Positions 8,303 through 24,747 of a stretch of DNA of 59,916 nt are shown piece after piece. The translations under genes and the position numbers were made by a program. Position 1 is the first letter of the stretch. The number at the start of each line of letters is the position of its first letter. The notes beneath the pieces are model-generated. The model did no database searches. It was not told the DNA's origin and worked only from the letters and a program-made list of their open reading frames with translations. Source of the DNA: Xenococcaceae cyanobacterium MO_188.B29 (GTDB taxonomy: Bacteria; Cyanobacteriota; Cyanobacteriia; Cyanobacteriales; Xenococcaceae); assembly GCA_030065155.1 (NCBI GenBank), contig JASJDI010000007.1, positions 1 to 59,916 of the forward strand, written 5' to 3'.

Positions 8303-8623
8303 AGGGTAAGTATATCTGGATTTGCCGTTTGTTCAAAGTTTATGCAAAAATCGACAATAAATAATGAAAAATTACTTATATCATTTCTCGAAAATAGCTA
8401 GATAAATAAGCAAATTATTTCTGATTAAAATTAATATACAAACACCTTGCTAGTTTTGAATTTTGTGAAGGCGTAATTCTGAGGAAACCTTAAAAAACAT
8501 CCCCTTATCTTAGACCAAATTAAGCAATGAAAAATTGTCATGGCTCGTGCGTTCCTTAGTGGAGGAAACCGCAGCAGGGTCGCTCGTCAATTATCAATTA
8601 TCCATTGTCCATTAGTTATTTAC
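8303..8623. other. Intergenic stretch with dispersed repeat
   Basis: No coding sequence is supported. The right half contains the dispersed GC-rich repeat listed at 8541-8586, then an AT-rich ATTATCAATTATCCATTGTCC tract of the kind common between cyanobacterial genes. Confidence 0.5.
8541..8586 (-). repeat. Dispersed GC-rich repeat, copy A
   Basis: Read on the minus strand it contains CTGCTGCGGTTTCC followed by CACTAAGGAACGC. The same block, CGCTGCGGTTTCC then CAGCTAGGGAACGC, appears on the plus strand at 13027-13065. Both lie between genes in AT-rich surroundings. Confidence 0.5.
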
Positions 8624-21893: not shown

Positions 21894-21917
21894 AATTATT
21901 CTCCAAAATTATAATAA

Positions 21918-22874
21918 TTAAAATGGGAATCCCAATCCAATTCCCAAGGCGAAATGAAGACTATCATCACCACCAACAACATCTCGTAATGCTGGAGTAA
22001 TGGTTAAGGGAATATTTTTAAAAGGAGCAACAGATAATCCTAAAGCTAAATCTTGCCCAGTCCATTCAGTTATTAAACTTACGGGTTGACCAAGACGAAA
22101 GGCTAAACTACCAAACACATTGATCTGGTCTTCGTCGTCTTCAATTGCTTCAAGAGTACGATATTGTCCATTGCCTAACCCCACAGATACAGCAACTCGA
22201 CTAAAAGCAGAGTTAAGATTCTCCCGTGTACGAAAAATTTTGGTAGCAACTCCATAAATTGAGTCTTCAAAATCATTATCATCGCCCAGATTAAGGAAAC
22301 CATTGAACCCTAATGCTACTGAAGCATCGTTGCCAATCATGCGATGTACTTTGGCGTTGAAACCACCAGTACCAAAATCTCGATTATTACCAAAACTAGC
22401 CATGGTATAGCTTAATTCTAGACCTACAGCTTTACGGGAGTTGCCTAAAGCAGCCCCAAAAACCATACCACCATCACTATCAAGAGAGCGAAATCTGGTA
22501 TCTGAAGCATAGCCAGCACCAACAAAAAATCTTCCTCCATCTCCACCAAAACCGTAGGGACTAGCAATAGTTATTCCTGGCGCGCCTTGGTTGGGACGAA
22601 AATTGAGATTACCAACTTGTTCTAGTTCTTGTAGTACATTACGAACTTTATCTGTATCTACGGAATCAGATTCAGACCAAGAGCTACTAACTTCTGTTTG
22701 TTTAGTTTTAGGTAATTCTGGATTATTTTGAGCAACTAAAGTAGTCAAAGAAGCAGCATCAGTAGTCCAAGAAACTGATTTATTACTGTCTTCAGAAATA
22801 GAATTTGCCAATACACTTAATCCTGACATTGGTACAAAGACCAAAGTACAGCAAGTAATAGTTAATATACGCAT
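21918..22874 (-). CDS. Predicted outer-membrane beta-barrel protein
   Basis: From the ATG at 22874 the product has 318 residues. A signal peptide (MRILTITCCTLVFVPMSGLS) is followed by an Asp/Ser-rich linker and alternating hydrophobic strands. Examples are RFFVGAGYASDTRF, MVFGAALGNSRKAVGLELSY, SVALGFNGFLNLGD and HFALGIGLGFPF. The C-terminal Phe after a hydrophobic strand is the usual outer-membrane insertion signal. The longer open frame starting at 22958 runs into the GC-rich structured element and is not believable. It heads a three-gene unit whose products are all exported, so this may be the membrane component of an unknown surface complex. No transported substrate is implied. Confidence 0.7.
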   Translation of the reverse strand: MRILTITCCTLVFVPMSGLSVLANSISEDSNKSVSWTTDAASLTTLVAQNNPELPKTKQTEVSSSWSESDSVDTDKVRNVLQELEQVGNLNFRPNQGAPGITIASPYGFGGDGGRFFVGAGYASDTRFRSLDSDGGMVFGAALGNSRKAVGLELSYTMASFGNNRDFGTGGFNAKVHRMIGNDASVALGFNGFLNLGDDNDFEDSIYGVATKIFRTRENLNSAFSRVAVSVGLGNGQYRTLEAIEDDEDQINVFGSLAFRLGQPVSLITEWTGQDLALGLSVAPFKNIPLTITPALRDVVGGDDSLHFALGIGLGFPF

Positions 22875-22891
22875 AAATCGGTTGCGGTAAT

Positions 22892-23254
22892 TTTTGACTG
22901 GGGAACACCAGTCACCGCACCAGGTCGAATTCCCTTTGGGTTCGTTAGTTGACGGCACTCACTACTCGGATGCAAGCTCCGAGTCCGTGCCTCCTCATGG
23001 GGGAAAGCCCCGCCCAAGACCGCACTAACTCAACGCGCCGACGAAAGGCGCAAGAGAACGTCGACCTTCGCTCCGTTGTCTTACGGTGAAACAGTTGCAG
23101 TAGGCAAGTTTCCCAACTCTCTTGGTGCGACCCTGGCGAGGAAATATCGCCAGGATAACACCGCTTGAGCAAACTGAGGAAAGACCCTACGTCCCCGAAA
23201 GGCGCAAGGGAACACTTTCCGATGTTGAAACCGAAGGGCGGAGTAACGGTGACT
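22892..23254 (+). ncRNA. Candidate structured RNA or palindromic element, ORF-less
   Basis: This block is far richer in GC than its surroundings. Perfect or near-perfect stems are visible: TGACTGG/CCAGTCA (left edge), ACTCGGA/TCCGAGT, GCGCC/GGCGC and CCTGGCGA/TCGCCAGG. An outer pair AGTCACCG (22910-22917) / CGGTGACT (23247-23254) encloses most of it. On the plus strand several loops read GAAA (GGGGGAAAGCCCC, GACGAAAGGCGC, CCCCGAAAGGCG), the GNRA pattern of structured RNA, which favours the plus strand. The motif CGAAAGGCGCAAG occurs twice. It could be a transcribed ncRNA, an ORF-less HEARO/omega-RNA-like relic, or a large MITE. None of these is proven. Confidence 0.45.
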
Positions 23255-23675
23255 TAATTGCTTGCAAGTTTTACTAATACCTTGCTGTTATACTCTGCAA
23301 TAACATCTACCCTCAACCGTTAAAAGCAAAAAATAGTTGTGTTCACGGATAAATTTGGTTGTTTTTACGGAAAAAAAAAACTTTTTTAGCAAAAAAATAT
23401 GAATTTTTACTTAAAAAAAATGTGGTGATTTAAAACAAAAATTAATTATATTTAATTTCAATATTTATACTGAATTTGTCGCCGATGTGGCAACTATAAA
23501 ACTTATGAATTATAGTAACAATATTGAGAAAAAAATTGTCAAGATTCACTATTTCTATCTAATCAAAAAGTTAGTAAATCTCCAATACTATAAACAAGCT
23601 TTACCAATTTATTAATCAGCCTTAACGATTCAATTTTTTGGGGTTGGGTGCTAAGCTGTCACGCTTTTAAATTTG

Positions 23676-23830
23676 GTTGTTGAAAATGGCAGGAGGGAGG
23701 CGAACAAACCTGCCGACGAAACGTCCGCCAAGGAACGCTAGAGAAAGGAAGAGGGTAGTAGTCTGTCAACACCTCGATTGGATATGGCGAGGAGACCTCG
23801 CCATCCCTCTCGGTCAATTTTGAATTGATG
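23676..23830. repeat. Second palindromic GC-rich block
   Basis: It contains a perfect 9-bp inverted repeat (ATGGCGAGG-AGA-CCTCGCCAT at about 23784-23804), a GGCAGG/CCTGCC stem near 23688, and an AAGGAACGC box shared with the dispersed repeat family. It has no coding content. Confidence 0.5.
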
Positions 23831-24638: not shown

Positions 24639-24747
24639 GGGAGAAAGTTAGTAAATAAGTCAATGACAAGGGCTTACTTTTTAGACTTGAGCCTTAAATT
24701 AAGACAATTTGTTAAAAACCTACCCTTGTGGGGATATGGAGAAGAAT

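Follow-up and report, generated by a model that had tools for sequence, protein, structure and literature searches.

The region examined here lies within a 59,916-nucleotide stretch of DNA from Xenococcaceae cyanobacterium MO_188.B29, the whole of which is referred to below as the window. At positions 22896-23254 of the window there is a GC-rich element of 359 bp, beginning 21 nt upstream of a gene for a membrane-protein-like product (minus strand, ATG at 22874-22872); no Pfam match was found for this neighbouring gene, whose assignment to an envelope operon is a reading of the initial annotation. The initial annotation had described at this place a GC-rich, hairpin-dense patch without an ORF, and this description is correct, as the stems, the outer inverted pair and the repeated box are all present at the positions which it gave. 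However, while the region was rightly identified, its limits (22892-23254, 345 bp) need to be corrected, as positions 22892-22895 are part of the AT flank. The GC content of the element is 0.565 (56.5%) in comparison to 0.379 (37.9%) for the window as a whole, and a fraction of 8e-5 of the other 359-bp segments are equally GC-rich. Each member of the outer pair is present just once in the window (AGTCACCG at 22910, CGGTGACT at 23247), and the box CGAAAGGCGCAAG occurs in it twice, at 23042 and 23196 only. The element has no ORF of its own, and a frame starting with GTG merely crosses it into the minus-strand gene. RNA folding of the element in comparison to shuffles gave z = -3.4 for the plus strand and z = -2.8 for the minus strand, and such folding above chance on both strands is expected of palindromes. 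A scan of the element against Rfam matched no family, either at the gathering score or at a permissive threshold of E<=10.

A search of the organism's own genome (6.24 Mb in 383 contigs) gave 44 matches to the element, nearly all of them partial, which fall on both ends and on interior blocks. When up to 3 mismatches are allowed, the left end ACTGGGGAACACCAGTCACC is present 58 times and the right end GAAGGGCGGAGTAACGGTGA 31 times in this genome, and the same patterns written backwards are found 0 times. The intact unit, referred to here as F58, is 58 bp long and produces a net gain of 54 bp; its copies have lengths of 58 bp or more, apart from a few that are shorter or damaged. For the full-length F58 copies from the retrieved loci (n=83), the observed lengths include 58 bp (27 copies), 103 bp (8), 109 bp (6), 160 bp (6) and others. 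The ends of F58 are TTNACYGGGG and GGTGACY, with TTNAC as the left flank, and the intact copies show compensatory changes at two pairs. The genome-wide counts reported in this work are based on pattern and model searches, and those from model matches are lower bounds. Outside of its own genome, the F58 left end occurs 19 times in a genome of the same genus and 36 times in a genome of the same family, and 0-1 times in most others; across the phylum, it was found in 2 of 386 genomes, one of these being the window's own. The named metagenome-assembled genomes in which it occurs are those of Xenococcus, Pleurocapsa, Xenococcaceae and Prochloraceae, plus one Rivularia. The element is thus a multicopy sequence with relatives in other genomes. 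No larger F58-ended elements containing an ORF were found, and the incomplete copies are truncated forms.

In another genome of the same genus (G386), the equivalents of 21905-22899 and 23249-23479 are contiguous with about 86% identity, and the element is absent. Queries made by joining the flanks of 16 other F58 copies revealed seven more contiguous (i.e. empty) sites in this genome. The net gain caused by F58 equals the element length minus 4, and at the empty sites 16 of 28 positions agree with the GACT of the joint, in comparison to about 78% in the flanks; a clean insertion, a short replacement and a changed target are all candidates for the chemistry of this joint. A true 4-bp target duplication was also considered for F58 and was rejected, as the GACY on the left is not identical to that on the right within copies, and no such duplicate is present at the empty sites. 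With its many copies, defined ends and an empty orthologous site, the element corresponds to the palindromic transposable unit which was among the possibilities raised initially. If, on the other hand, it were a structured non-coding RNA, as yet undescribed and having a function of its own, which was another of these possibilities, or a riboswitch acting on the neighbouring gene, then its folding above shuffles on both strands and its location in the possible 5' leader of the minus-strand gene would be consistent with this. However, the orthologous gene in the same-genus genome lacks the element, the interior differs in every copy with modules present in both orientations, the neighbour gene varies even among the minimal copies, and there is no Rfam match. 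Hence, an RNA of this kind is highly improbable. No sign of a regulatory role was seen for the window copy, whose position, if it is transcribed, is in the 5' leader of the gene, and its identification as a riboswitch or HEARO is not accepted. It is probably not an antisense RNA either, and control of the neighbouring gene by antisense or as a spacer, also raised initially, would be a putative role.

The longer F58 copies result from the insertion of exact hairpin modules of 45, 51 and 57 bp into F58 and into one another. A clean 45-bp insert, with 0 mismatches elsewhere, distinguishes L104 or L138 from L098 and also L111 from L109, and a clean 51-bp insert, again with 0 mismatches elsewhere, distinguishes L110 or L141 from L092 and L120 from L141. 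When shorter and longer F58 copies differing by the 57-bp insert are compared, a few mismatches are seen. In these exact empty/filled pairs, the module insertions are not accompanied by a target duplication. At one locus (L118), a 51-bp unit is present in a 51-bp unit, which is in turn in a 51-bp unit inserted in F58. The unit sizes of 45, 51, 54 (net) and 57 bp are all multiples of three, and the net gain is divisible by three in 59 of the 66 elements of up to 170 bp, many of which are intergenic. The organization of the window copy, in which F51 denotes the 51-bp module, is as follows, together with a better-kept module from elsewhere in the window.

22896-22919, plus strand: F58 host left end (GACTGGGGAACACCAGTCACCGCA) with the hairpin GACTGG/CCAGTC; 58 own-genome copies at <=3 mismatches, reversed-pattern control 0; left flank consensus TTNAC/YGGGG
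22921-23069, minus strand: first inserted module, F51-like and itself interrupted, with arms GGTCGA (22923) and TCGACC (23061) and the first CGAAAGGCGCAAG box; weak model match at 23027-23060 (E 0.55), uninterrupted equivalent at the same place in L028, manual parse
22933-23034, no strand assigned: insert within the first module, hairpin ACTCGGA/TCCGAGT; 22933-23000 recurs alone (97% on contig C320, 89% on C369)
23070-23086, plus strand: F58 host middle (GCTCCGTTGTCTTACGG), from alignment to minimal 58-bp copies
23085-23239, plus strand: F57-type module (GGTGAAACAGTTG ... TTGAGCAAACTG ... GATGTTGAAACCGAAGG), split by two further modules; intact 57-bp form in L010 and L021
23118-23164, plus strand: decayed F51 module (model R1, 25.4 bits, E 5e-5)
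23178-23224, minus strand: decayed F51 module with the second CGAAAGGCGCAAG box (model R1, 18.2 bits, E 0.006)
23236-23254, plus strand: F58 host right end (GGGCGGAGTAACGGTGACT); 31 own-genome copies at <=3 mismatches, control 0
23255-23479, no strand assigned: upstream flank beyond the element, directly joined to 21905-22899 at the empty site in the same-genus genome
13021-13071, minus strand: better-kept F51 module elsewhere in the window (model R1, 46.6 bits), with F58-like sequence out to 12997 (BLAST to F58 elements)

The window copy thus contains at least three decayed 51-bp modules, of which two, those in minus orientation, carry the CGAAAGGCGCAAG box as their distal hairpin and 3' arm, and the right half of the element is framed by the F57-type arms. 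Based on these F51 modules, the F57-type arms and the recurrent 22933-23000 block, the window element is interpreted as a decayed nest in an F58 host, although its decay is too advanced for every inner boundary to be certain and the outer minus-orientation module is a manual parse. It is therefore very probable that this element is a degenerate nested copy of F58, a dispersed, non-autonomous palindromic mobile element.

The F51 module has a length of exactly 51 bp in all 18 copies obtained by a simple rule and in all 58 model matches, and its ends are TSTCTTGG and CCGC. All 18 simple-rule copies are inserted 5' of a T, and this is also true for most, but not all, copies in two further genomes. 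In the folded module, a conserved asymmetric internal loop separates a 6-bp outer helix from a 3-bp helix, and a two-base bulge separates the latter from a 7-bp hairpin. Changes on both sides were observed for 12 of the 16 pairs, and the covariation score of 0.604 compares with 0.154 for shuffled and <=0.125 for slid alignments; however, as the complementarity of helix P1 was in part used for selecting F51, only P2 and P3 provide independent evidence of covariation. Of 120 genomes of the order, 30 gave matches to a covariance model for F51, including at least 48 copies in the own genome; the module is present in other families of this order, and no match was seen in family f6 (taken to be the Nostoc family). 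The plasmid sequences gave only weak relatives, viz. in Stanieria cyanosphaera PCC 7437 and Chondrocystis NIES-4102. F51 is also found cleanly inserted exactly between tandem heptamers, and in four other loci (L329, L341, L343 and L351) it splits another common palindrome, GTAGGGGCG/TTTCGCGAAACGCCCCTAC, at its midpoint, and this palindrome is coding in 2 of these 4 cases. Ten F51 copies in one genome (G056, L290-L299) are within one repeated sequence with shared flanks, and eight copies in another (G066, L300-L307) are in tnpB-like genes. The shared repeated flanks and TnpB-like hosts indicate that some F51 copies hitchhike on multicopy sequences, and these carriers are probably insertion sequences.

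Copies of these units are also present within genes. Of the 83 F58 copies, 24 lie within open frames that are 120 codons or longer, where they are read in at least four different frames. The F58 hosts in which a conserved domain continues on both sides of the insert include PfkB, beta-galactosidase (LacZ), CheA, a hybrid histidine kinase, a polyketide synthase and a phosphoribosyltransferase-like enzyme. F51 is likewise found in frame in TnpB, IscB, an N6 methylase, a BFA1/DUF3598 protein, CobN, a TrpE/PabB-type enzyme and a cytochrome P450; in the alignment of the N6 methylase, the extra residues due to F51 correspond to a gap in the solved homologue. One genome (G397) has F51 in cobN, in a gene of the trpE/pabB type and in a P450 gene. 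In Rivularia sp. MS3 (L094:156-2960, minus strand), F58 is in frame within the intein of the DNA gyrase B gene (gyrB), and in the own genome (L319:1176-1652, plus strand) F51 lies within a Y1 (IS200-type) transposase gene, on the C-terminal side of the matched domain. A further locus (L246:843-2408, plus strand) contains a HEARO RNA and its iscB, in which F51 adds 17 residues in frame to the RRXRR domain of the protein. The element in the window had also been suspected to be an ORF-less relic of HEARO/IscB or of another OMEGA RNA, and its GC-rich and hairpin-dense character, as well as the F51 modules inside iscB and tnpB genes, could be seen as pointing to this. However, the HEARO model gives no match in the element even at E<=10, yet it scores 136.5 bits beside the iscB gene in L246, and the F51 in iscB is a later insert in the protein rather than a guide RNA. 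The probability of such a relic is thus close to nil.

At the level of the sequences compared, these units are characterized by dispersal, empty sites, single-base-precise nested insertion lacking target duplication, conserved folds with compensatory changes, lengths divisible by three and copies that keep the frame of genes. The sequence of events was very probably that F58 was inserted 21 bp upstream of the membrane-protein-like gene after the lineage had split from its sister species, and that smaller hairpin modules (F51 in both orientations, the 57-bp module and at least one other) then entered F58 and one another, giving rise to the 359-bp nest. The insertions are clean and in both orientations, the length is constant and the stems covary, and this argues for a folded single strand as the form that is moved or recognized. 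Each unit would thus move as a folded strand recognized through its hairpin and conserved internal loop, and an enzyme acting in trans would insert F51 5' of T and F58 at TTNAC-like sites. Transposases of the IS200/IS605 type act on hairpins and leave no target duplication, and motifs of the TTNAC type are used by this family. An IS200/IS605-like single-strand transposase is tentatively the enzyme envisaged, and movement via an RNA intermediate, a possibility reportedly once proposed for small dispersed repeats (SDRs), is the main alternative, though a rather unlikely one. The own genome has 10 Y1 transposase genes, but neither an autonomous element nor a transposase with ends matching F58 or F51 was found beside the 30 Y1 loci inspected. 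Palindromes favour template switching, and as the Y1 loci inspected yielded no matching enzyme, it could be proposed that the units are non-mobile and have spread through gene conversion or template switching among existing hairpins. However, the exact-length units at many unrelated sites (tandem heptamers, unrelated genes) and the clean empty sites in the sister genome require de novo insertion, which makes a non-mobile origin very unlikely. If the units were instead small members of the RAYT/REPIN kind, viz. REP-like hairpins moved by a TnpA-REP tyrosine transposase, this would fit with the hairpin units, their high copy number and the Y1 genes noted above. However, the GTAG/CGTC tags of the REP family (PMC3733652) are missing from the hairpin foot of both F58 and F51, F58 is not a pair of inverted REPs, and copy number does not track the Y1 count, as G389 has 43 Y1 genes and zero F58. 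Membership of this kind is accordingly improbable.

Among the known systems, the closest kinds to F58 and F51 as mobile units are the SDRs of Nostoc and the Rickettsia palindromic elements (RPEs). The SDRs described by Elhai et al. in 2008 are reportedly of 21-27 nt, form hairpins with compensatory changes, and occur nested and within tandem heptamers and minitransposons. On the basis of these descriptions, the present units share with them the dispersed high copy number, nested insertion and embedding in tandem heptamers, whereas they differ in length (units of 45, 51, 54 and 57 bp, with 51 bp in 58 of 58 F51 model matches) as well as in keeping frame and occurring in conserved protein genes. 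SDR1-SDR8 of Nostoc and its relatives are cited in passages of PMC4390886 and PMC3116915, and according to the former SDR5 inserts precisely inside HIP1. The RPEs, which are palindromic repeats of about 150 bp, encode a conserved peptide and are inserted in frame in unrelated conserved genes (PMC10969869). The present units likewise occur in frame in conserved protein genes that are unrelated to one another, but the RPEs are about 100-150 bp long with one conserved peptide frame, whereas the units here are of 45-57 bp, about a third as long, with F58 read in at least four frames in 24 ORFs; they also nest in one another and are from another phylum, and no sequence relationship is expected. Due to the differences in size from the SDRs, and in length and single frame from the RPEs, the units are placed in neither group. 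MITEs and the PATE/IS200-IS605-derived elements are similarly non-autonomous, palindromic and dispersed, but F51 is a single irregular hairpin in contrast to the two terminal hairpins present there. The IS200/IS605 elements resemble F51 in inserting without target duplication, and F58 in its TTNAC-like sites; however, no Y1-bearing element with matching ends was found among the 30 Y1 loci inspected. The HEARO/OMEGA RNAs are also structured, GC-rich and cyanobacterial, but the HEARO covariance model (RF02033) has no match here. No printed match was found for the element sequences tried in the literature searched.

It is possible, and is proposed here with some reserve, that these units are a separate class of mobile hairpins, hitherto undescribed and shaped by coding targets, which add whole codons, have several readable frames, reinsert into themselves and build growing peptide nests within genes. 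Insertions in genes may often be tolerated because the units add whole codons and stay open in several frames. An extreme form of this proposal, viz. that the insert is skipped by ribosome hopping or RNA removal and never reaches the protein, is extremely improbable; skipping of this kind has been proposed for the 'byp' elements in the mitochondria of yeast. If translation includes the inserts, then conserved cyanobacterial enzymes carry removable inserts of 15-50 residues, tolerance of which is directly testable, and if they are untranslated, then an unknown skipping route exists. The exact single-base empty/filled pairs provide a clean record of insertion, nesting and in-gene survival for some of the smallest known mobile DNAs, and the units account for a class of hairpin-dense cyanobacterial intergenic patches that resemble, but are not, novel RNAs. 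Further decayed module remnants are present in the window at 8543-8583, 23700-23744 and 24666-24733, and the second GC-rich patch, near 23700-23830, probably represents a decayed nest as well.
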